A model generated the notes under the pieces. That model did not search any database and was not told the origin of the DNA. It was given only the letters and a program-made list of their open reading frames with translations. The position numbers were made by a program, and so were the translations under genes. Below are positions 433-63,048 of a stretch of 64,000 nt of DNA, piece by piece. Origin of the DNA: a bacterium (GTDB taxonomy: Bacteria > Desulfobacterota > Deferrisomatia > Deferrisomatales > Deferrisomataceae); assembly GCA_027021615.1 (NCBI GenBank), contig JALUTY010000014.1, positions 1 to 64,000 on the forward strand. The letters are read 5' to 3'. Numbering within the stretch: position 1 is the stretch's first letter; each line of letters starts with the position of its first letter.

Positions 433-868
433 AGACTGGAAACTAGAGACTCGGCGACAAGATAGGCGCGTCACCTCGGAGGGCTGGGCAAGGGACCTGC
501 CTCCGGCCGGGCGCGAAGCCGGGCATGAGATTCGCCGCGCAGGCACGGGGCCGAAGAGCTAATTTTATGACAACTCGGTGGAATCTGACCATTTCGCGGT
601 CCGAGCGTCAGAGGCGTTGCGCGGCGAGCTAAGGGGCCGCGCCCGGCTCTCCGACAGGTCCCTTGCCCCTCCGAGCAGGGAGCGATAGCGCCTGTTTATC
701 CCCCGGGGACTATTAACCCGGCGTTCCATTTCGCAAAAAAAGTATGCGGATTGCGGCGGTGGGGCTGGGGGCTCCGACGAAGCGTGACGGCCGAGCAGCC
801 CGGGAGCCGACCCGACCGACGACCAAAGACCGACGACCGACGACCGAAGTTGCTGGGAGCCATTCACC
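411..868. repeat. Mosaic intergenic element, site 1
   Basis: No gene is seen here. Parts in order: a TAGAGAC-type 7-nt array (about 411-452); a long inverted repeat (486-668) with three nested stems, 486-499 with 655-668, 507-515 with 638-646, and 533-541 with 618-626, leaving a loop of about 76 nt; a unique stretch (669-812); a GACCGAC 7-nt array (813-845); and a GAAGTT-GCTGGGAG leader box (846-859) that provides the ribosome binding site of the gene at 869. The inverted repeat is nearly identical to the copy at 16360-16544. Confidence 0.85.
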
Positions 869-2168: not shown

Positions 2169-3041
2169 ATGGCCGCAAAGGGCTTTTCCTATCACCGCCC
2201 CACCAGCCTGGGCGAGGCCCTGGCCCTGCTGGCGGACCTGGGGCCGGGGGCGGTTCCGGTGGCGGGGGCGACGGACGTCTGGGTGAACCTGCGGGCCGGC
2301 AAGCTCGCGCCCGAGGCCCTGGTGTCGTTGCGCAACGTGCCGGAGCTCTCGGGCCTCCGGAAGACGGAGCACGGCCTCGCGCTGGGGGCGTGCGTCACCC
2401 ACGCCGAGGTGGAGGACGACCCGTGGGTGGCCGAGCACTTTCCGGCCCTGCACCAGGCCTGTTCGGGCGTGGGGTCGAGGCAGGTGCGCAACGTGGCCAC
2501 GGTGGGCGGAAACCTGTGCAACGCCGCCCCTTCGGCCGACTCGGCCGTGGGGCTCCTGCTCTACGACGCCGAGTGCCGCATCGAGACCGGAATCGGCCAC
2601 CGGGACGTGCCGCTCACGGAGTTCTTCGCCGGGCCGAACCGGACCGTTCTCGGCCCCGGCGAGGTGCTGGCCGAGATCCGATTGCCGCTCCCGGCGGGCC
2701 GGACCTTTGCGGGCTACCGGAAGATCACCCGCCGCAAGGCCGTGGAGCTGCCGATGATCGGCATCGGCGCCCGGGTGACCCTGGGGGCCGACGGCCGGGT
2801 GGCCGAGGCCCGGATCGCCCTGGGGGTGGCCGGTCCCACCCCCCTGCGGGTGCGCAAGGCCGAGGACCGGCTGGAGGGCGAGCTCCTCACCCGCGAGGCC
2901 GTGGCCGAGGCCGCCGAGATCGCGGCCCAGCAGGCCAAGGTGCGCGACTCCTGGCGGGGCGAGGCGTGGTACCGTCGGGAGATGATCCGGGTGTGGATCC
3001 CCCGGATCCTGGACGAGGCGGTCCTCTCACGAAAGGGGTAA
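2169..3041 (+). CDS. Molybdenum hydroxylase, FAD-binding subunit
   Basis: 290 aa, the medium (CoxM/XdhB-like) subunit of xanthine-dehydrogenase-family enzymes, passing electrons from the 2Fe-2S subunit to an external acceptor. The FAD-binding segments VPVAGATDVWVNL (about 28-40) and VGGNLCNAAPSADS (about 112-125) are present, followed by the CO-dehydrogenase-flavoprotein-type C-terminal domain. The extra 4Fe-4S insertion of 4-hydroxybenzoyl-CoA reductase beta subunits is not visible, arguing against that enzyme. The start ATG follows a GGAGGACGCGAC ribosome site. Gene order FAD, FeS, Mo is usual, but here a repeat element of 276 bp separates this gene from the next subunit. Confidence 0.92.
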   Translation: MAAKGFSYHRPTSLGEALALLADLGPGAVPVAGATDVWVNLRAGKLAPEALVSLRNVPELSGLRKTEHGLALGACVTHAEVEDDPWVAEHFPALHQACSGVGSRQVRNVATVGGNLCNAAPSADSAVGLLLYDAECRIETGIGHRDVPLTEFFAGPNRTVLGPGEVLAEIRLPLPAGRTFAGYRKITRRKAVELPMIGIGARVTLGADGRVAEARIALGVAGPTPLRVRKAEDRLEGELLTREAVAEAAEIAAQQAKVRDSWRGEAWYRREMIRVWIPRILDEAVLSRKG

Positions 3042-3317
3042 AGTGCACCGGCCCCCACTCAGTTTCGGCGGAGGGGCATGGGGCCTGCTTCCGGCCGCGC
3101 GCGAAGCCGGGCATGAGGTTCGCCGCGCAGGCACGGGGCACCAACAGTGGTCTTATGGCGGTGCGGCCGGGCACGAACGGTTTCACGGTACAAGCGTTGG
3201 AGGCGCTGCGCGGCGAGCTGAGGAGCCGCACGCGGCGCTCCAGCAGCCCCCATGCCCCGCGGAGCGTTGACGCGACGGCCTGGGAGCCGCCCAGCGTCCC
3301 TCAAGGAGAGCTCTGAT
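3042..3317. repeat. Mosaic intergenic element, site 2 (splits a three-subunit enzyme operon)
   Basis: Contains one long inverted repeat, arms 3073-3089 (GGGGCATGGGGCCTGCT) and 3242-3258, with inner stems homologous to site 1 but of different sequence; changes in one arm are mostly matched in the other. It lies between the FAD and 2Fe-2S subunit genes, which are normally contiguous. No 7-nt or 8-nt array is present here. The end (3303-3310, AAGGAGAG) is an ordinary ribosome site for the next gene. Confidence 0.85.
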
Positions 3318-3794: not shown

Positions 3795-6133
3795 GTGCCA
3801 CGGCAGTGGTGGGCAAGGCCATCCCCAAGGTGGACGGCGCCGAGAAGGTCACGGGGCGCACCGTCTACATCCACGACCTGAAGATTCCGGGCATGCTGTA
3901 CGGCAAGATCAAGTACAGCGACCGGGTGAGCGCGCGGATCGTCTCGATCGACACCTCCGAGGCGGAGAAGGTGCCGGGCGTGAAGGCGGTGATCACGGCC
4001 TACAACACCCCGGAGATCCGGTTCGGGTTCCTCAAGGACAACACCGCCCTGAAGAAGGACCGGGTACGCCAGTACCGGGACGAGATCGCGGCCGTGGCCG
4101 CCACCACGCCCGAGGCGGCCGAGGAGGCGGTGCGGAAGATCCGGGTGGAGTACGAGGACCTGCCCGCGGTGTTCGACCCGGACGAGGCCCTGAAGCCCGA
4201 CGCGCCCCGGGTGCACCAGACCGACGCCCGGGGCAAGCCCCTCAAGGACAACCGGCTGCGCCTTCCCTGGCGGGTGGAGGCGGGTGACGTGAAGGCCGGG
4301 GAGGAGGCCAGCGCGTTCGTGGCCGAGGGCGAGTACGAGGTGGGGTGGGTGACCCACTGCTGCCTGGGCACGTCGGGGTGCATCGCCTCGTTCGACCCCC
4401 ACGGCAACCTGACCATGTACTCGAACACCCAGATCCCCAGCCTGGCCCGGACCGACTACATGGAGGCCTTGAAGGCCATGGGGCTCCGGGGCCGGGTGCG
4501 GGTGGTGAACGCGGCCATCGGCGGCGGGTTCGGGTCGAAGCTCGACACCTACGCCCACGAGTACATCGCGATCCTGCTCGCCCACCGCACCGGACGGCCG
4601 GTGAAGATCGTGTTCGACCGTGAGGAGGAGTTCTTCGCGACCTCGCCCCGGCAGCCGGTCAAGGTGCGGGTGCGGCAGGGGTGCGACGCCGAGGGCCGGC
4701 TCACCTTCCGGGAGATCTCCATGGTCCTGGACAACGGGGCCTACACCTCCTGGGGGGCCACCACCCCCACGGTGATGATGATGCCGGCCACCAGCCTGTA
4801 CCGGGTGCCCAACGTGCGGTTCGAGGCCACCTGCGTGTACACGAACAACACCTACTGCCAGGCCATGCGCGGGTACGGCACGCCCCAGGTCACCTTCGCC
4901 ATCGAGTGTAACCTGGACGAGCTGGCCGAGAAGGTCGGGCTGGACCCCCTGGAGATGCGCCTGCGCAACGCGAACGAGCCGGGGGAGATCACGCCCCAGG
5001 GGTTCAAGGTCACCACCTGCGGCCACCGGGAGTGCATCGAGGAGGTGGCCAAGCGCCTCGACTGGAAGAACAAGCGGGGGCGGGCCGGCCAGAGGGGGGC
5101 CAAGCGCCGGGGCGTGGGCATGGCCTGCCTGATGCACGTGGGCGGCGGGGCCAAGATCTACCGGTCCGACGGGTGCGGCACCCTGATCAAGGTGGACGAC
5201 TTCGGGAACGTGGACGTGTTCAGCGGGTCCATGGACATCGGCCAGGGCCTGGACACGGTGCTCAGGCAGATCGTGGCCGAGACCCTGGGGGTGGGGATCG
5301 AACGGGTCAACGTGATCGTGGGCGACACCGACGTGTGCCCCTGGGACGTGGGGGTCCATGCGTCCCGGTCCACCTTCATCGCGGGCAACTCGGCGCTGAA
5401 CGCCGCCCGCATGGTGCGCGACCAGATCCTGGAGTTCTCGGGCCAGATGCTGGAGGCCCCGCCCGAGATCCTGGCCCTGGAGAACGGCCAGGTGGTGTGC
5501 CGGGAGGATCCCTCGAAGAACCTGCCCCTGGCCAAGGTGCTCCGGCGGGCCCACTTCGCCAAGATCGGCAACACCATGTTCATGGCGGCCCACTTCTACG
5601 AGCCCGACACCGACATGCTGGAGGGGGAGTTCAAGGGCAACTACTCGTGCACCTACGCCTGGGGCTGCCACGGCGTGGAGGTGGAGGTGGACACCGCCAC
5701 CGGCCACGTGGAGATCGTCAAGTACGTGGCGGCCCACGACGTGGGCCGGGCGATCAACCCGATGCTCCTGCGGGGCCAGGTGCAAGGCGCGGTGATGATG
5801 GGCATCGGGTACGCCCTGTCCGAGGAGATGATCTTCGAGCAGGGCCGGCTCCGGAACCCCAACTTCCGGGACTACAAGATCCTCACGGCCAAGGACGCCG
5901 TGAAGGTGGAGCCGGTGATCGTGGAGACCGAGGACCCGGCCGGCCCGTTCGGGGCCAAGGGGATCGGCGAGCCCGGCCTGGTGCCCTCGGCCCCGGCCAT
6001 CGCCAACGCCATCTACGACGCCGTGGGCGTGCGGCTGAACCGCCTGCCCCTGAAGCCCGAACGGGTGCTCCGGGCGCTCAAAGAACGGGAAGCCCCATCA
6101 GGCCCCTGCGGGGCCCTACAACGGGAAGGGTAG
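3791..6133 (+). CDS. Molybdenum hydroxylase, molybdopterin-binding large subunit
   Basis: 780 aa, the catalytic subunit of the xanthine dehydrogenase/aldehyde oxidase family. The N-terminal a/b hammerhead (IPKVDGAEKVTGRTVYIHD) is followed by AIGGGFGSK, AMRGYGTPQ, the GQGLDTVLRQI segment, and GIGEPGLVP carrying the presumed catalytic glutamate. AMRGYG rather than the CoxL AYXCSFR loop excludes form I CO dehydrogenase. The ATG overlaps the small-subunit stop. The linked mocA, yqeB and yqeC genes suggest cytosine-dinucleotide cofactor and labile-selenium maturation. The last 14 or so codons and the TAG stop lie in a repeat element (from about 6091), so the C-terminal tail EAPSGPCGALQREG is probably not ancestral. 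Substrate unknown. Confidence 0.92.
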   Translation: MSATAVVGKAIPKVDGAEKVTGRTVYIHDLKIPGMLYGKIKYSDRVSARIVSIDTSEAEKVPGVKAVITAYNTPEIRFGFLKDNTALKKDRVRQYRDEIAAVAATTPEAAEEAVRKIRVEYEDLPAVFDPDEALKPDAPRVHQTDARGKPLKDNRLRLPWRVEAGDVKAGEEASAFVAEGEYEVGWVTHCCLGTSGCIASFDPHGNLTMYSNTQIPSLARTDYMEALKAMGLRGRVRVVNAAIGGGFGSKLDTYAHEYIAILLAHRTGRPVKIVFDREEEFFATSPRQPVKVRVRQGCDAEGRLTFREISMVLDNGAYTSWGATTPTVMMMPATSLYRVPNVRFEATCVYTNNTYCQAMRGYGTPQVTFAIECNLDELAEKVGLDPLEMRLRNANEPGEITPQGFKVTTCGHRECIEEVAKRLDWKNKRGRAGQRGAKRRGVGMACLMHVGGGAKIYRSDGCGTLIKVDDFGNVDVFSGSMDIGQGLDTVLRQIVAETLGVGIERVNVIVGDTDVCPWDVGVHASRSTFIAGNSALNAARMVRDQILEFSGQMLEAPPEILALENGQVVCREDPSKNLPLAKVLRRAHFAKIGNTMFMAAHFYEPDTDMLEGEFKGNYSCTYAWGCHGVEVEVDTATGHVEIVKYVAAHDVGRAINPMLLRGQVQGAVMMGIGYALSEEMIFEQGRLRNPNFRDYKILTAKDAVKVEPVIVETEDPAGPFGAKGIGEPGLVPSAPAIANAIYDAVGVRLNRLPLKPERVLRALKEREAPSGPCGALQREG

Positions 6134-6424
6134 CTTTCGTTGGTCCGGAACCATTGCCGGCGGTGGGGCACGGAGCCTGCCGGTCAGGAGCCAGAAGACA
6201 GAATTCAGAGGACAGGTTGCAACGTCGGATGCAGGAGCGTGCCCGTGGTCTTTTCCTGTCTTCGGCCCGCTGAATCCTGGCCCCTGAAACCCATGCCCCC
6301 CGAAGCCCTGGCGTCGGGGCTCAAGAGCCGCCCGGCCGCCCAGCTGCCCAGCGGGCCGAAGGCCCCCGACCGACGACCAACGACCGACGACCCACGACCG
6401 AAGTTACGTGGAAGCCTCGCCGGG
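6091..6424. repeat. Mosaic intergenic element, site 3
   Basis: Parts in order: a GC hairpin and AAGGGTAGC box (6091-6160) that overlaps the end of the large subunit; an inverted repeat (6164-6302) whose inner arms are CAGAAGACAGAATTCAGAGG and its near-complement CCTGTCTTC...CTGAATCCTGG; an 8-nt array of CCGCCCAG type (6325-6358); a GACCGAC 7-nt array (6366-6399); and a GAAGTTAC-GTGGAAG leader box (6400-6414). About 110 bp (6188-6302) recur almost unchanged at 23261-23375. Confidence 0.85.
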
Positions 6425-7018
6425 CTGCTGCTGGCCGCCGGGGCGTCGGCCCGGATGGGCGGGCCCAACAAGCTCCTCCTGCCGGTGGAAGGGGAGCCCC
6501 TGGTCCGGCGGCCGGCCCGGGCGCTGTTGGAGGCGGGCCTGAGACCCGTGGTCGTGGTGGTGGGCCGGGACGCCGAGGCCGTGCGGCAGGCCCTGGAGGG
6601 GCTCCCCGTCCTCTTTGCCGAGAACCCGGATTTCTCGGAGGGCATGGCCGGGTCGCTGCGGAAGGGCGTCGAAGCCCTCGGGAGCGACGTGGAGGCGGTG
6701 GCGATCGCGCTGGGGGATCTCCCGGACCTTCGGGCCCCGGTGGTTCGGCGCCTGGTGGCGGCGTTTCATGATGCCGCCCAAGGCATCGTGGTTCCGGTCC
6801 ACGAGGGCCGAAGGGGGCACCCCGTGCTTCTGGATCTCCGGCGATACCGGGGTGAGCTCCTGGCCCTTGCCGGAGACGAGGGCGCCCGATCGATCCTCCG
6901 CCGACACCCCGAGGAGGTGCTAGAGGTAGCGGTGGAGGACCCCGGGGTGACCGCCGACGTGGACACCCCGGAGGAGTACGAGCGGATCCGCCAGGGGGCC
7001 CGCGCCCCCCGACCGTAA
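6293..7018 (+). CDS. mocA: MocA-like molybdenum cofactor nucleotidyltransferase
   Basis: NTP-transferase family protein, probably transferring CMP to molybdopterin to make the cytosine dinucleotide cofactor of the neighbouring hydroxylase. Conserved parts are LLLAAGASARMG, the substrate lysine region NKLLLPVEGEPLVR, ALGDLPDL, GHPVLL, and the C-terminal DVDTPEEYERI. The start is uncertain: the homologous region begins only at about 6416, but the nearest in-frame ATG (6293) is inside the repeat element, which would add a 40-residue repeat-coded leader; a CTG near 6425 after the leader box is the alternative. The next gene is yqeB, as expected for selenium-dependent hydroxylase clusters. MobA (GMP transfer) is less likely given the context. 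Confidence 0.82.
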   Translation: MPPEALASGLKSRPAAQLPSGPKAPDRRPTTDDPRPKLRGSLAGLLLAAGASARMGGPNKLLLPVEGEPLVRRPARALLEAGLRPVVVVVGRDAEAVRQALEGLPVLFAENPDFSEGMAGSLRKGVEALGSDVEAVAIALGDLPDLRAPVVRRLVAAFHDAAQGIVVPVHEGRRGHPVLLDLRRYRGELLALAGDEGARSILRRHPEEVLEVAVEDPGVTADVDTPEEYERIRQGARAPRP

Positions 7019-7965: not shown

Positions 7966-8420
7966 GGGGCTGGAAAGCCCGATCAGGCCCTGTGCGGGGC
8001 CCGGCAACGAGGAAAGGTAACGCTTGGTGGTGCTGGGGCCATCGGCGGCGGCGGGGCATGGGGCCTGCTTCCGGCCGGGCGCGAGTGCAGCATCCGATCG
8101 CCGCGCCTTCGCATGCCGTTACCGGAGCAGCCTGTTCGGGCGGCGACAGCGGAGGACCTTGGAATTCGGCGAAGCTACGGATGGTTGGGGGGCGCGGCGA
8201 GCCAAGGAGCCGCGCCCGGCGCTCCAGCAGACCCCACGCCCCCCGAGCTTGGGCGCTGGCTCAGGAGCCGCTCGGCTGCCTAGCCGCCCAGCGGGCCGAA
8301 GGCCCCGACCGAAAACCGTAGACCGACGACCGTAGACCGAGGTTACTGGAAAGCTGGGAGGCGGAGAAATCAGCGGACAGGCTTCCACTGTCCTCTGTCT
8401 TCTGTCCTCTGTCCTCTGAC
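7966..8420. repeat. Mosaic intergenic element, site 5 (longest set of parts)
   Basis: No gene. Parts in order: GC hairpin and AAAGGTAACG box (about 7975-8025); a long inverted repeat of a second subtype, arms 8053-8069 and 8226-8242, inner loop starting GTGCAGCATCCGATCG, shared with the copy at 62803-62998; an 8-nt array (8266-8300); a GACCGAC 7-nt array (8307-8338); a GAGGTTACTGGAAAG leader box (8336-8351); and a second 7-nt array of TCCTCTG type (8388-8418) ending directly at the ATG at 8421. The methyltransferase thus starts without a normal ribosome site. Confidence 0.85.
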
Positions 8421-9014: not shown

Positions 9015-9844
9015 GGTTCACGAAGCCCCAACGGCTGGCCGACGCCCTGGGGGTGGGCCGGGGCGACCTGGTCACCGTGGTGGGGGCCGGGGGCAAGACC
9101 ACCCTGATGTACCGGCTGGTCCGGGAGCTTCGGGAGCAGGGGGTCCGGGCGGCTGCCGGCACCACCACCAAGATCTTTCCGCCGGATCCGGAGGGAGGAG
9201 GCAGGCTGGTCCTGGGGGAGGGCCCGGAGGCCCTGCAGGAGGCGGTGGCGCGGTGGGATTGGGCCGACCCCGGGTTTCCGGTGCTCGGCCGGACCCGGAT
9301 CCACCCGGGCAAGGTGGACGGCATCGACCCGGCCTGGGCCGTCGGGTTGCTGCGGGACGACCTTCTGGAGGCGCTGGTGCTCGAAGGGGACGGGTCGGCC
9401 CGCCGACCCGTGAAGGCGCCGGAGTCGTGGGAGCCGGTGGTGCCGGCCGAGACCACGGTGTTCGTGGCGGTGGCGGGGCTATCCTGCCTGGGGCGCCCCC
9501 TGGGGCCGGACGTGGCCTTCCGGACCGAACGGTTCGCCGCCGTCACGGGCCTGGGCGGGGGGGAGCCCATCTCGGCCGAGGCCCTGGCACGGCTGTTCGT
9601 GCACCCCGAGGGCGCCGCAAAGGGGTGCCCGCCCGGGGCCCGGGCCGTGGCGGTGCTGAACCAGGCCGACGACCCCCGGCGATGGGCCGCGGCCCGGGGG
9701 ATCGCCGGGGCCGTGCTGGCGGCCGGAGGACGGTTCGAAAGGGTGGTGGTGGCCAGGCTGGCCGAGCCCGAGGCGTGTTGGGAGGCGTGGGAGAAGGCCA
9801 TGCCCCCCGAGGGGGCGGCGGCTCGGGAGCCGCCTCGACCGTAG
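9011..9844 (+). CDS. yqeC: YqeC-family selenium-dependent hydroxylase accessory protein
   Basis: 277 aa, starting at GTG 9011 which overlaps the methyltransferase stop. A P-loop GAGGKTTLMYRL (about 27-38), the GTTTKIFPP segment, and EGDGSARRPVKAPESWEPV match the YqeC family, found together with YqeB in genomes with selenium-dependent molybdenum hydroxylases. It is probably a nucleotide-dependent maturation factor; its reaction is not established. Together with mocA and yqeB it is the main evidence that the upstream hydroxylase uses a selenium-containing cofactor. The stop codon TAG is formed by a GACCGTA heptad of the adjacent array. Confidence 0.88.
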   Translation: MRFTKPQRLADALGVGRGDLVTVVGAGGKTTLMYRLVRELREQGVRAAAGTTTKIFPPDPEGGGRLVLGEGPEALQEAVARWDWADPGFPVLGRTRIHPGKVDGIDPAWAVGLLRDDLLEALVLEGDGSARRPVKAPESWEPVVPAETTVFVAVAGLSCLGRPLGPDVAFRTERFAAVTGLGGGEPISAEALARLFVHPEGAAKGCPPGARAVAVLNQADDPRRWAAARGIAGAVLAAGGRFERVVVARLAEPEACWEAWEKAMPPEGAAAREPPRP

Positions 9845-9866
9845 ACCGTTGACCGAAGACCGACCT
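9817..9866. repeat. Mosaic intergenic element, site 6 (short 7-nt array)
   Basis: A GGCGGCTC-GG-GAGCCGCC hairpin (9817-9834) inside the end of yqeC, then four GACCGTA/GACCGTT/GACCGAA/GACCGAC heptads (9838-9865) that contain the yqeC stop codon. A run of eight T follows, without a stem directly before it. The remaining 95 bp to the next gene hold only its ribosome site. Confidence 0.75.
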
Positions 9867-11035: not shown

Positions 11036-11176
11036 CAGGTCCGGCGGGCTAGAGGCTAGAAACCAGAGACTAGAAACTAGGATCAGGCCTTTCAGCCTCC
11101 CAGCCGCCTAGCCGCCCACCGGGCCGAAGGCCCCAGACCGTCGACCGTCGACCGAAGTTCCAAAGGCAACCGATCC
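11036..11176. repeat. Mosaic intergenic element, site 7
   Basis: A TAGAGGC/TAGAAAC-type 7-nt array (11049-11081), an 8-nt array CCTCCCAG/CCGCCTAG/CCGCCCAC (11094-11119), the GGGCCGAAGGCCC hairpin, a GACCGTC 7-nt array (11137-11157) and a GAAGTTCCAAAGG leader box (11154-11166) 10 nt before the ATG at 11177. There is no long inverted repeat at this site. Confidence 0.8.
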
Positions 11177-11653: not shown

Positions 11654-13038
11654 TCGCGGACCGGTCCACCCTGCGCACGGGGCGACCCGACCCCGGGGAG
11701 GCGCTTTGGAACCCTGGGGTGGAGGCCCTGCCGACGGACCGGATGCGCCGGCTGCAGTGGGAGCGGCTGCAGCGGCAGCTGGCCTACGTGTACCAAAGCT
11801 CCGCCTTCTACCGCCGTTGGTTCGACGAGGCCGGGGCGAGGCCGGAGGACGTGGACTCGTGGGACGCCTTCACCCGCCTGCCGATCCTGACCAAGGACGA
11901 CCTGCGCCGGGCCCAGGCCGAGAGCCTGGCCGAGCGGGGCGACCCGTTCGGCGGCATCTGCTGCGCGCCCCGGGACCGGGTGGTCCGGGTGAACGCCACC
12001 TCCGGCACCACCGGAACCCCCACGCTGTACCTGCTCACGGCCCACGACGTGGCCGTGGTCAACGAGATGCACGCCCGCAAGTACTGGCGGGCAGGGCTGC
12101 GGCCGGGCCACGTGATGCTCCAGGCCCTGAGCCTCTCCATGTTCACCGGCGGGCTGCCCCTGTCCCAGGGCATCATGCACCTGGGCGCGGCCGTGGTTCC
12201 GGTGGGCGTGGACGGCGGCAGCCGGCGGGTGCTGGAGTTCGCCCGGCTCACTCGGCCCCAGGCCGTCGTGGCCACCCCCAGCTTCGGGCTGCACCTGGTG
12301 GAGCGGTGCCCGGCCGTGCTGGGATGCGACCTCCGGGATCTGGGTATCCGGTGGTTTTTTGCGGCGGGCGAGCCGGGCGGGTCGGACCCGGCGATCCGCA
12401 GCCGGCTGGAGCAGGGGTTCGGCGCCCGGGTGTTCGACCACACCGGCGGCGGGCACGCGTTCCACGCCATCACCTGCCCCGAGCACGCGGGCATGCACTT
12501 CGTCTCGGCCGACCACTGCGTGCTGGAGCTGGTGGAGCCCGGCACCGGCCGGCCGGTGCCGGTGGGCGACGGGGCCGAGGGGGAGCTGGTGGTGACGTTC
12601 CTGGCCTGGGAGGGCACCCCGTTCGTGCGGGCGAGCTTCGGCGACGTGGTTCGGGTGTGGACGGGCCCGTGCGGGTGCGGACTGCCGGGCCTCAAGCTGA
12701 GCATCGTGGGCCGGGCCGACGACATGCTGATCGTCAAGGGCGTGAACCTGTTCCCCGGTGCGGTGCGGGCGGTCCTGGAGGAGTTCGTGCCCCGGGTCAC
12801 GGGCCACTTCCGCATCGTGCTGGCACGGCCCGGCCCCCGGGTGGACCCGCCCCTGCGGCTCCGGGTGGAGCGGGGAAGCGGGGTGGAGGGGGAGGCTCTG
12901 GCCCGGCTGGAGGCCGAGCTGGTGTCCGCCATGCGGGACCGGCTGCGGGTCCGGCCCGCCGTGGAGTGGGTGGACCCGGGAACGCTGCCCCGGCCCACCC
13001 ACAAGGCCCGGTGGGTCGAGGTGGAGGGAGACGGATGA
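11650..13038 (+). CDS. Second phenylacetate-CoA ligase-like enzyme
   Basis: 462 aa from GTG 11650. NATSGTTGTPTLY (about 116-128) is the phosphate loop; GRADDMLIVKGVNLFPG (about 356-372) and the C-terminal PRPTHKARWVEVEGDG complete the AMP-ligase architecture. The usual acid-recognition motif GMTE is altered to HTGGGHAFH, indicating a different substrate pocket from the ligase at 869. Both ends overlap neighbours by 4 nt (V4R gene upstream, HyuB-type gene downstream), so the three are one translational unit. In acetophenone-type pathways a carboxylase made of Hyu subunits is followed by CoA ligation, which this layout recalls, but no HyuA subunit is present here. Confidence 0.86.
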   Translation: MIADRSTLRTGRPDPGEALWNPGVEALPTDRMRRLQWERLQRQLAYVYQSSAFYRRWFDEAGARPEDVDSWDAFTRLPILTKDDLRRAQAESLAERGDPFGGICCAPRDRVVRVNATSGTTGTPTLYLLTAHDVAVVNEMHARKYWRAGLRPGHVMLQALSLSMFTGGLPLSQGIMHLGAAVVPVGVDGGSRRVLEFARLTRPQAVVATPSFGLHLVERCPAVLGCDLRDLGIRWFFAAGEPGGSDPAIRSRLEQGFGARVFDHTGGGHAFHAITCPEHAGMHFVSADHCVLELVEPGTGRPVPVGDGAEGELVVTFLAWEGTPFVRASFGDVVRVWTGPCGCGLPGLKLSIVGRADDMLIVKGVNLFPGAVRAVLEEFVPRVTGHFRIVLARPGPRVDPPLRLRVERGSGVEGEALARLEAELVSAMRDRLRVRPAVEWVDPGTLPRPTHKARWVEVEGDG

Positions 13039-16150: not shown

Positions 16151-16773
16151 GGGGGGGACGTTGGGACGTTAGGACGTTAGGACGTTGGGACGTTGGGACG
16201 TTGGGACGTTAGGACGTTAGGACGTTAGGACGGTGGGACGGTGGGACGGTGGGACGGTGGGACGTCCCTGAGGCCCCCGAGAGGGGTGGCAACGTGCCCT
16301 GGCTCACGGTGTAGGAGCGACCTCTCGGTCGCGATCCCTGGCGGGGCCAGTCGGCGGCGGGGCAAGGGACCTGCCTCCGGCCGGGCGCGAAGCCGGGCAT
16401 CGAGATTCGCCGCGCAGGCACGGGACCGAAGGGCTGCTTTCATGACAACTCGGCGGAATCCGAACCATTTCGCGGTCCGAGCGTCAGAGGCGCTGCGCGG
16501 CGAGCTAAGGGGCCGCGCCCGGCTCTCCGGCAGGTCCCTTGCCCCCGAGCTTTGGCGGTGGCCCGGGGAAGCGGCCCGGCCGCCCAGCGGGCCGAAGGCC
16601 CCGACCGACGACCGTTGACCGACGACCGACGACCGAAGTGACCAGGAGGCCAGAGAGAGAATGAGACCCTTGCAAACCGTAGGTATCCCCCCCCTCGTCA
16701 CGGTTCCGCGGGCGGCCCAGCCGCCCAGCCGCCGTGCTGCCCGGCGGCCTAGCCGCCTAGCGGCTTAGCCGCC
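16151..16773. repeat. Mosaic intergenic element, site 8 (inside liv operon)
   Basis: Fourteen 8-nt units of GACGTTAG/GACGTTGG/GACGGTGG type (16157-16264); a GACCTCTCGGTCGC hairpin region (16318-16333); a long inverted repeat (16360-16544) nearly identical to the site-1 copy; short CCGCCCAG units (16569-16585) with the GGGCCGAAGGCCC hairpin; a GACCGAC 7-nt array (16602-16636); a GAAGTGACCAGGAGG leader box (16635-16649); and a second 8-nt array CCGCCTAG (16718-16773) that ends at the livH ATG. The only possible gene is a 35-codon frame at 16661-16768. Confidence 0.85.
16661..16768 (+). CDS. Possible 35-residue leader peptide before livH
   Basis: A short ATG frame with a good ribosome site (CCAGGAGG, 10 nt upstream) in the position where other leader boxes meet a true gene. 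It ends five bases before the livH ATG, which lacks its own ribosome site, so translation of livH could be coupled to it. The encoded peptide is basic and proline-rich in its second half because it reads through an 8-nt array (RRAARRPSRLAA). This may equally be a chance frame. Confidence 0.25.
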   Translation: MRPLQTVGIPPLVTVPRAAQPPSRRAARRPSRLAA

Positions 16774-23008: not shown

Positions 23009-23502
23009 CTGGAGACTAGAGAGCCTAGAGAAAATCTTAGGGGCCTCGGCCCGTGAGGTGGGGCGGGCGCTCCACCAGGCCCCCCGCCGCCGAGTTGGCG
23101 AGAGCCCCTCGCCCTGGGGGCCAGGAGGCCGAAGACCGAAGACCGTGGGCCGAAGTTACAGGGAAGCCCCTTCGGCGCTGGGGGCCCCTACAACGGAGAA
23201 GGGTAACGTGCGTTGGCTCGGGCCGTTGTCGGCGGCGGGCATGGGGCCTGCGGTTCAGGAACCAGAAGACAGAATTCAGAGGACAGGTTGCAACGTCGGA
23301 TGCAGGAGCGTGCCCGTGGTCTTTTCCTGTCTTCGGCCCGCTGAATCCTGGTCCCTGAAACCCATGCCCCCCGACTTTGGTGCGGTTCGAGAGCCGCCCG
23401 GCCGCCCAGCTGTCCAGCCGCCTAGCGGGCCGAAGGCCCCAGACCGGCGACCGTTGACCGTAGACCGACGACCGAAGTTACGAAGTTACGTGGAAGGCAG
23501 CC
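23009..23502. repeat. Mosaic intergenic element, site 9 (two elements in tandem)
   Basis: A TAGAGAG remnant (23015-23030); a first 7-nt array with GAAGTTACAGGGAAG box (23130-23166) that leads into a GC hairpin instead of a gene; AAGGGTAACG box (23200-23209); an inverted repeat (23237-23370) with the same core as site 3; an 8-nt array (23396-23430); a second GACCGTT/GACCGAC array (23442-23476); and a leader box with the octamer GAAGTTAC doubled (23474-23489), then GTGGAAGG 10 nt before the ATG at 23503. The tandem layout suggests one element inserted into or beside another. Confidence 0.82.
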
Positions 23503-26440: not shown

Positions 26441-26980
26441 GCGAAAGAGGCCCCCGCCGGGGATCCTTCTTCTCCCCGTCCCACTCCCCCGCGGAAATTT
26501 TTTAAAGAGTTCTAAAGTCCGAAATTCCCTCCTCCGATTATGACCCGGAAGGTTCGCAGGAATTGGGCCATCCGGGCCCCCAAGCCGGAGAGAGGTCTGT
26601 TCTGAAATTTCCTTTGCGGGTTCCCCCCCCTCGGCTCCCCCTGGTTTCACCCTCCGTCGGTTTCCGTCATCGTTTTTTTCTCGGCGGCCCAGGCAGGCCC
26701 CCGCGGGCTGGGCAACGGAGAAGGGTAACTTGCGTGGGCCCGGGGCCATCGTTGGTGGCGGAGCCATGGGGTCTGCTTCCGGCCGCGCGCGAAGCCGGGC
26801 ATTGAGATTCGCCGCGCAGGCAGGGGGCACCGACGACCAACGACTGACGACCGTCGACCGAAGTTATTACTCCGGCGGCTAAACGGATGCGCTCTGGGGC
26901 GTGGGGCCCGAGGCCCCACGCCCCTGCGACCACCTGAGCGCCTCTATATTCGCTGGGTCAATACTGGAAAGGAGTGTGCC
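26441..26980. repeat. AT-rich stretch and mosaic intergenic element, site 10
   Basis: No gene. A T/A-rich stretch (26495-26545) is followed by unique sequence, then the AAGGGTAAC box (26721-26729), the left half only of a long inverted repeat (26762-26826, a truncated copy), a 7-nt array (26830-26862) with GAAGTTATT, and 26941-26980, where TACTGGAAAGGAG supplies the ribosome site for the chemoreceptor. The leader box appears to have been split by about 100 bp. Confidence 0.75.
26513..26540 (+). promoter_or_regulatory. Possible FliA-type promoter
   Basis: TAAAG (26513-26517) and TCCGATTA (26533-26540) resemble the sigma-28 elements TAAA and GCCGATAA, but the spacing is one base longer than usual and it lies 440 bp before the chemoreceptor gene. 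Weak on its own; mentioned because the next operon has a better match. Confidence 0.25.
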
Positions 26981-40170: not shown

Positions 40171-41045
40171 CAGGGGCCGAGGCCGCAAAGGCGTCGAAGC
40201 CCCGCCTGACCCCGTCGGAGTTTCAGGTGCTGGCCCAGTACCTCTACGAGGTGTCCGGCATCCACCTCGACCCGGGGAAGGCCTACTTGGTCGAGACCCG
40301 CCTCGGCCACATGCTCGAGGAGCTCGGGTGCGCCTCATACAGCGAGTTCCTGTACCGCCTCAGGCAGGACCGAAGCAAGAGCCTGGTCCATCGCTTCGTG
40401 GACGCGATGACCACGAACGAGACGCTCTTCTTTCGGGACACCGGGCCGTTCGACCTTCTGCGCTACAAGCTGCTGCCCGACCTGATCGACCGAAAGACCT
40501 CCGGCGCGGTGACAGGGCTGCGACCCACCATCCGGATCTGGAGCGCCGCGTGCTCGTTCGGGCAGGAGGTGTACAGCGTGGCCATCGTGTGCCACGAGGT
40601 GCTCCAGCACGCGCCGGGGGTGTCCGTGAAGATCCTGGGAACCGACATCTCCAGCGCGGCGGTGGGTCGGGCGAGCGCCGGAAAGTACAGCGCGTTCGAG
40701 GTGGAGCGTGGACTGCCCCCCAATATCCGGGAGCGGTACTTCCAAAAGGTGGGGCACTCCACCTGGAAGATCTCGGACGAGATCCGGGCCATGTGTCAGT
40801 TCAAGAAGCTCAACCTGCTGGAGCCGTTCGGGTTCCTGGGCCGGTTCGACATCATCCTGTGCCGCAACGTGGCCATCTACTTCAAGCCGGAAGACCGCAA
40901 AAACCTTTACGAACGGTTGGCCGACTCCCTGGAGCCTTGGGGAGCGCTCCTGATCGGGGCGTCGGAGTTCCTCACCGGGGTGACCCAGCGCTTCACGGCC
41001 CGAAGACACCTGCGACATGTCTACTACGTGAGAACCGATCCATAA
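40167..41045 (+). CDS. cheR: CheR receptor methyltransferase
   Basis: 292 aa, ATG overlapping the cheB stop. N-terminal helical domain, then the SAM-binding domain: TTNETLFFRD, IWSAACSFGQEVYSVAI, ILGTDISSAAV, FDIILCRNVAIYF and LLIGASE are typical CheR motifs (usual GCSTGEEPYS is altered to ACSFGQEVYS). It methylates receptor glutamates. Last gene of the chemosensory operon before a repeat-filled gap. Confidence 0.95.
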   Translation: MTGAEAAKASKPRLTPSEFQVLAQYLYEVSGIHLDPGKAYLVETRLGHMLEELGCASYSEFLYRLRQDRSKSLVHRFVDAMTTNETLFFRDTGPFDLLRYKLLPDLIDRKTSGAVTGLRPTIRIWSAACSFGQEVYSVAIVCHEVLQHAPGVSVKILGTDISSAAVGRASAGKYSAFEVERGLPPNIRERYFQKVGHSTWKISDEIRAMCQFKKLNLLEPFGFLGRFDIILCRNVAIYFKPEDRKNLYERLADSLEPWGALLIGASEFLTGVTQRFTARRHLRHVYYVRTDP

Positions 41046-41372
41046 CCCGGCGAGCACAGGGGCCGCGCCCGGCGCCCCAGCAGGCCCCAGGCCACCCCGG
41101 GGCTTTGGCGGCGGCAGGGGAACCGTCTCACCCCCTGGGATTCGTGGCCTTTCGACCAACGACTGACGACCGTCGACCAAAGTTACTGGAAAGGGGCGGC
41201 CCGACTCCTTCGAACCAAGCACGTCGTCTGGGGGCTGGTTGCTTTTCGGGCTTTTCCTGACTTCTGCCTCCTGAACTCCGGCCCCCGAACCGCAGGCCCC
41301 GCGCCCGGCGCCACGGCACCATGCTTGTCCTGCCGCTGGGTCGACAACCCCCTCGCCGGAGGCGTTTCGACC
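41046..41372. repeat. Mosaic intergenic element, site 11
   Basis: Right-hand half only of a long inverted repeat (41050-41100), a GACCAAC/GACTGAC/GACCGTC/GACCAAA 7-nt array (41155-41182) with an AAAGTTACTGGAAAGG leader box (41180-41195), then a CTGACTTCTGCCTCCTGAAC 7-nt-like tract (41254-41285). The array heptads match those of site 10 unit by unit, as though the two truncated sites (left half at 10, right half at 11) are related. Confidence 0.75.
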
Positions 41373-49722: not shown

Positions 49723-50050
49723 GGCGTGTGGGGTCCGGGGCGTTGCCGGGGGCATGGGGCCTGCTGTTCAGGAGCCAGGGGCCGGAGGACAGAGGACAGA
49801 AGACAGAAGCGTAGGGCGCCTCCCACGATGCGCGAAGCTCTATGAGGTGGGAGGCTTTCCCCTGTCTACCGTCCTCTGAATTCTGACGGCTGGTATGGCC
49901 ACGCCCGGCGCTCCGGCAGACCCCATGCCCTCCGGACCATGAGGTGGAGGCGAAGAGGCGTGGTAATGCCTAGAACGTGTGGGAATCCGGGAGGTTTTCA
50001 AGCCTCCCAGCGTCCCAGCGTCCTAGCGGAAGTTGCATGGAAGAGGAACC
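49723..50050. repeat. Mosaic intergenic element, site 12
   Basis: A long inverted repeat with the common outer arms (49749-49765 and 49915-49930) but a different interior: an AGGACAG/AAGACAG 7-nt array (49784-49808) facing its complement CTGTCTACCGTCCTCTGAAT (49862-49881). After unique sequence come an 8-nt array CCTCCCAG/CGTCCCAG/CGTCCTAG (50005-50028) and a GGAAGTTGCATGGAAGAGG leader box (50028-50046) giving the ribosome site of the gene at 50051. Confidence 0.82.
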
Positions 50051-58651: not shown

Positions 58652-58757
58652 GGGGGCCCACGCCCGACCGGAGGTAGGCCCCTTGCCCCGCCCCCCAAGA
58701 GCTTTTGACTCGAACGCGACTCGGTATCAAGCGCCCGGCCCGATCTGCCGATCCGAG

Positions 58758-62769: not shown

Positions 62770-63048
62770 CCTCTTCCTAAACTCTTCGAAAGTGTTGCCG
62801 TAGTGCGGGGTGGTGGGGGCCTGGCTCCGGCCGGGCGCGAGTGCAGCATCCGATCGCCGCGCCTTCTCATGCCGTTGTCTGTCCGTCGATTCAGTCGGCG
62901 ATAGCGGAACCCCCGGAAGCCGGTGGCGGTCCCGACATTCGGGGGCGCGGCGAGCCGAGGGGCCGCACCCGGCGCTTCGCCAGACCCCCACCCCGCACTC
63001 CCCGGGGAGGGAGGCACGAGCCCTGAGGAGCCCTCGTTGGAGGGGTGA
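62770..63048. repeat. Mosaic intergenic element, site 14 (inverted repeat only)
   Basis: A long inverted repeat of the second subtype (62803-62998). Its outer arms, GTGCGGGGTGGTGGGGGCCT and the near-complement CAGACCCCCACCCCGCAC, differ from every other copy yet still pair; the interior GTGCAGCATCCGATCG is shared with site 5. No tandem array is present. It sits between convergent genes, so it is not tied to a start codon here. Confidence 0.82.

Follow-up and report, generated by a model that had tools for sequence, protein, structure and literature searches.

The nearest precedent for the repeats described here is RUP of Streptococcus pneumoniae, a repeat of 107 bp for which mobilisation by IS630-Spn1 at TA sites has been proposed (PMC2229807). 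Our repeats resemble RUP in being short, intergenic and present in many copies, with TIRs matching an IS630-family insertion sequence and a TA target (PMC2229807). Unlike the smaller RUP, which has one shell, the elements here span 270-480 bp and carry a core found in at least four shells with differing target duplications. The Correia/NEMIS elements of Neisseria, likened here by description and not by sequence, are also TA-ended MITEs with long stem-loop transcripts and provide a precedent for RNase III processing, indicating that hairpins of such kind can matter in mRNA; the passages concerning them in PMC2229807, however, describe no modular exchange of core and shell. The bcr1-bcr3 repeats of the Bacillus cereus group are MITE-like and occur in UTRs and operon intergenic regions (PMC3446304), but belong to a different host group and are again comparable by description, not by sequence. 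Tn3-derived TIMEs and mosaic transposons are likewise non-autonomous shells with exchangeable contents (PMC4133298), but they have Tn3-type 38-bp ends and 5-6 bp duplications, and they carry gene modules rather than a common hairpin core. The literature searched held no report of one hairpin core common to shells with differing ends and duplications, which is in itself weak evidence. We regard the elements as IS630-type MITEs that are unusual in having one exchangeable hairpin core in several shells.

The window, the whole stretch of DNA that was analysed (64 kb), was compared within its own genome (G000), with two genomes of the same genus (G001 and G002) and with one of the same family (G003); L-numbers designate stretches taken from these four genomes. 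The repeats are most probably (at roughly 0.8) non-autonomous, MITE-like nested palindromes, in which a transposon-end outer shell surrounds one of a few cores (I-IV). The palindromes are ~270 bp in length, extending up to ~480 bp. A sequence-only reading had named six copies of a long inverted repeat, with arms that differ between copies and still pair. All six were recovered at those positions with alignable arms; the coordinates first given correspond to the inner part of a larger palindrome, which at site 1 extends from ~452 to 710 (Table 1). Pairing of the arms was confirmed, with minor corrections. Outer arms pair over 14 bp at sites 486-668 and 16360-16544, whereas the 8053-8242 arm contains an A.C mismatch and the outermost base is unpaired at site 49749. 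Similarly, the inner stem of site 2, CCGCGCGCG/CGCACGCGG, contains one compensated pair (G-C to C-G) but also one broken pair (C.A), and this second pair is missing in 15 of the 36 copies compared. The outermost TATTAACC of the left shell A at site 1 is missing in the window and present in G002, in which the orthologous copy has an internal deletion (~493-595).

Table 1. Positions of the repeat elements and their parts in the 64-kb window.
Feature	Position	Strand	Remarks
Core I copy, site 1	486..668	+	outer helix 486-499/655-668
Site 1 core I, middle helix	505-520/635-648	+	
Site 1 core I, inner helix	528-541/618-630	+	
Shell A left part, site 1	452..485	+	CGGCGACAAGATAGGCGCG...; compare IS630-type end TTAACCCGGCGATTAAATAGGCGCG
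Shell A right part, site 1	669..710	+	CTCCGAGCAGGGAGCGATAGCGCCTGTTTATC...; extreme end degenerate
Core I copy, site 2	3073..3258	+	arm variant GGGGCATGGGGCC/CCCCATGCCCC
Shell C composite with core III	6100..6406	+	TTCAGGAGCCAGAAGACAG...
Shell C composite with core II (8053-8242)	7968..8346	+	whole block absent from G002
Core I copy in shell C context	16360..16544	+	
Shell C composite with core III	23180..23485	+	core 96% identical to copy at 6166-6303
Shell C composite, only 5' half of core I kept	26722..26860	+	
Shell-A-like mini element, 95 bp	26867..26961	+	TTACTCCGGCGG...GCTGGGTCAA, TA-flanked
5'-truncated shell C copy	41042..41190	+	absent from G002
Chimeric copy	49749..49930	+	5' half core III-like, 3' arm core II/IV-like
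Fragment: core/mid arm joined to shell B end GCGACTCGGTATCA	58661..58728	+	
Core II copy with shell D mid arm GTGCGGGGTGGTGGGGGCCTGG/CCAGACCCCCACCCCGCAC	62803..62998	+	

Four outer shell types, A, B, C and D, were seen. Shell A carries the ends of an IS630-family insertion sequence, together with its TA duplication, and a complete version of this insertion sequence is present in the sister genome G002. The 25-bp ends of shell A, TTAACCCGGCG..AAATAGGCGCG, are matched in the IS630-family element (L175-L177), the shell A TIR being TTAACCCGGCGACAAAATAGGCGCG and the IS630-type TIR TTAACCCGGCGATTAAATAGGCGCG. The complete element in G002 is 1107 bp long, TA-flanked and encodes a 345-aa DDE_3 transposase, with at least three copies that are >99.5% identical. 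Shell A elements measure ~267 bp end to end. Most intact copies have TA flanks, frequently within a CTA..TAG context, and one fresh insertion shows CTA. Common TIRs, TA duplication and a short, non-coding, multicopy nature, as expected of an IS630-family MITE, were all observed for shell A. Shell D, with CTAATACCAACGG / CTAAGGCCTACGAAGG ends, also combines IS630-like TIRs with insertions that duplicate TA; its TIRs, CTAATACCAACGG.../CTAAGGCCTACGAAGGTATTGCCGG, are similar but not identical to those of a second IS630-type element, CTAATACCTACAA.../CTAAGACCTTCAAAAGTATTGCCGG. Shell B has TACCAAGTTGC ends and a 3-bp TNA duplication, as indicated by matching TNA flanks, and shell C is a longer composite flanked by GGAAG or TGGAA, the target sometimes lying just before the next gene. 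A related autonomous element was not found for shells B and C: no pair of shell B ends encloses a recognisable transposase, and matches to PF13358, PF01609 and PF01797 were detected without suitably placed B or C ends. No shell B end is present in the same-family genome G003, in which A-like and C-like flanks occur. In the window's own genome, whose 134-contig assembly could have lost IS copies, no DDE_3 (IS630-type) transposase was detected. As judged from ends and duplications, IS630-type transposases supplied in trans would have moved shells A and D, and shells B and C were presumably moved by other enzymes.

Several sequences associated with the shells were also observed. Shell C composites include intergenic tails in which short tandem units (GCCGCCCA/GCCGCCTA, ACCGACG) surround a GGGCCGAAGGCCC hairpin; these tails are located in the window at 6353-6403, 8293-8346, 11121-11160, 16589-16640 and 23427-23480. 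An array of the 8-bp unit GGGACGTT/GGGACGGT lies at 16155-16258, directly left of the 16360 copy, and is absent from G002 together with it. Near 1378 and 2489 of L177, the IS630-type element is inserted into the conserved GGCGAGC-TA-AGGAGCC of a core, indicating that the cores themselves offer TA targets. Another repeat of ~180 bp, GCCCGCATTATTCATGAAGCC...CTCATGAATAATGCGGG, is gained or lost between genomes, and both shell D and its IS630-type relative use it as an insertion site (L136 ~6261-6442, L020 ~9600-9850, L046 ~12527-13015 and the flanks of L171 1376-2484).

The cores are not tied to particular shells. Core I was found in shells A, B, C and D, core II in shells C and D with a II-like core in an A-type shell of G003, core III mostly in shell C and core IV in shell B among others. 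The sequence adjacent to the arms, CCGGCCGGGCGCGA ... GGRGCCGCGCCCGGC, is common to cores I, II and IV, which have differing loops; core III is a different inverted repeat. The simplest reading is that cores were swapped by recombination through the common arms. Entry of cores into pre-existing empty shells was considered and rejected, the coreless shells looking like internal deletions between short mid-arm repeats. It is also conceivable, although we consider it unlikely, that the hairpin core is a unit of its own, recruited by several unrelated transposon shells because its fold helps transposition. If so, the fold may bring the ends together or shield the element, and selection on pairing would act during transposition itself, not at the level of the host.

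The window's own genome contains at least 40 nearly full copies as well as several fragments, a lower bound derived from scoring 40 of 320 candidates. The elements are abundant in the two same-genus genomes and fewer in the same-family genome, while more distant relatives contained none or, in three genomes, one 29-37-nt match each. A profile search detected 155 nearly full cores in 2.25 Mb from the four genomes, stretches chosen mostly around known copies such that densities do not represent genome averages. In G002, one contiguous 400-kb stretch contains 11 nearly full cores.

Individual copies are gained and lost between closely related genomes. The single contig of G002 is syntenic with the window, identity being ~97% over the first quarter and lower beyond it. 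The 347-kb alignment of G000 and G002 contains 66 indel junctions of >40 bp, many of which are a clean gain or loss of hairpin elements. The copies at 8053 and 16360 are present in the window and absent from G002, the latter together with its left flank (16155-16588), and the site of the 26867-26961 mini element is intact and empty in G002. The 3073 copy is present in G002 and absent from G001: L059, a contig of the deltaproteobacterial MAG JAADGT01 whose window matches coincide with G001 contig C106, joins window position 3021 to 3303 with ~18 bp between. At the place corresponding to 6100-6406, G000 carries core III whereas G002 carries core I. The empty sites show that insertions have occurred recently.

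The folding potential of the copies is variable. As RNA, the inner 183 bp of site 1 (486-668) fold with z = -3.7 relative to dinucleotide shuffles and the full-length copy L014:4442-4708 with z = -7.5 to -8.4 (-6.1 as DNA), whereas the 8053 copy (8030-8265) is barely better folded than shuffles (z = -1.8). RNAalifold gave a poor consensus over all 155 copies owing to the differing loops of cores I, II and IV, and the structure of the window copy was mapped in its place. No Rfam match at gathering scores was obtained within the window, and no reading frame is open throughout all 88 cluster-2 cores.

The sequence-only reading attributed the paired arm changes to selection on folding and proposed covariation analysis of genome-wide copies as a check. 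In an R-scape-like test, an in-house approximation to R-scape consisting of an APC-corrected G-test with a null in which substitutions are re-placed on the tree, one of 41 pairs (pair 8-182) was significant across the 155 copies and none was significant within cluster 2, cluster 1 or core II. Same-branch double changes were counted on a tree built from unpaired columns. The outer helix had 42, of which 34 go from pair to pair, compared with a null mean of 11.8 and a maximum of 21 in 500. The corresponding values were 4 versus 1.6 in the middle helix (P = 0.06) and 5 versus 4.3 in the inner helix (P = 0.43). Thus, against a phylogenetic null, an excess of covariation was detected by co-substitution in the outer helix only and not throughout the stems, the middle and inner helices having no clear excess. 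Simple counting in 36 copies gave 92.5% paired cells versus 87.8% in shuffles and 57 double-changed cells versus 15.1, although kinship alone can exceed such shuffles. The outer-helix double changes are unevenly distributed, as 22 of the 42 fall on nine branches, each with two or three pairs switching together. A further 20 branches carry a single double change, indicating that arm swapping does not explain every paired change.

A different picture was obtained for copies that stay in place. In 19 G000/G002 copy pairs with both flanks orthologous, a small sample, about 32-33 one-sided changes and no pair-preserving double change were observed; the single double change does not preserve pairing and lies outside the outer helix. 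Of the 32 one-sided changes scored, 23 either abolish or create a pair. The ratio of one-sided to double changes in the outer helix is 18:0 in orthologs versus 157:42 on the tree (Fisher P = 0.027), a comparison to be read as indicative since the counts were made differently. Stems of orthologs diverge slightly less than loops (2.2% versus 3.4%, P = 0.03), which leaves room for weak constraint. Paired changes therefore separate copies within a genome, and their accumulation at fixed sites is not seen in the 19 pairs. The proposal of selection on folding, as RNA or cruciform DNA, was consequently not supported, given the ortholog result, the appearance of about half of the double changes as whole-arm exchange and the dispensability of several copies between sister genomes.

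Selection by the host on hairpins acting as cruciform DNA or in mRNA, where they could for example stabilise operon transcripts or lead to their cleavage, would be consistent with the excess of paired changes in the outer helix, the strong folding of full copies, the slightly lower divergence of stems and the location of several window copies between same-strand ORFs, where they would be transcribed. We nevertheless consider it improbable: orthologs preserve no pair by double change while most of their one-sided changes alter pairing, copies come and go between ~97% identical genomes, and the middle and inner helices lack a clear excess. We found no evidence for a host RNA function of the hairpins. 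Founder arms that are inherited, together with arm exchange and possibly template switching, fit better than host selection, given that the 19 ortholog pairs contain no pair-preserving double change and that several pairs switch at once on some branches. Template switching between arms during replication is known both to create and to maintain hairpins and has been documented to give rise to compensatory changes in them neutrally (PMC8794818); it could thus generate paired changes without selection. Copies L011 and L024 differ by one pair on both sides and L019 carries a one-sided intermediate, as expected from this process; it should, however, also act at fixed loci, where the 19 ortholog pairs contain no pair-preserving double change, and the joint switching of separated pairs on nine branches is better fitted by exchange between copies. 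Template switching can hold together with the MITE interpretation, but as the main source of the paired changes it is a tentative alternative that we think somewhat doubtful. Combined, the paired arm differences would mark founder lineages of the MITE-like elements and would arise when copies are born or recombine, by arm exchange, with template switching probably adding further paired changes. Well-paired copies are possibly more mobile, and a copy, once inserted, would then drift with little or no selection on its pairing.

Two other modes of spread were weighed and are far less probable than any of the above. RAYT-type Y1 transposases are present in all four genomes, as would be needed for REP/REPIN-type elements, but GGGACG-type repeats of their own, and not the arms described here, flank the RAYT genes, and the TIRs of shells A and D are of DDE type and accompanied by TA duplications; a RAYT origin was therefore rejected as very improbable. 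RAYT-like Y1 genes are located in L147, L148, L149, L154 and L155, several being flanked by short repeats, GGGACGCTGGTC and variants. The reverse complement of L148 8550-10199 (G002 near 1,936,000) contains a 550-aa ORF in which a RAYT-like Y1 domain is joined to a ferredoxin-like stretch rich in cysteine; this ORF may be a frameshifted tandem copy. Spread by reverse transcription was suggested by a single shell C copy (41042-41190) that is 5'-truncated and has a repeated tail. This is the least probable of the alternatives, as truncation in other copies affects the 3' side or the middle and no PF00078 reverse transcriptase was detected in G000, G002 or G003.

These repeats provide a worked example in which covariation of repeat arms mimics a functional RNA, yet orthologs that stay in place are without paired changes, an observation that bears on the handling of mobile repeats in genome-wide covariation screens. 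The sharing of cores among shells raises the question of whether a hairpin interior raises the transposition rate of a MITE. Within the genus, many of the differences in intergenic length that separate close relatives are due to these elements.
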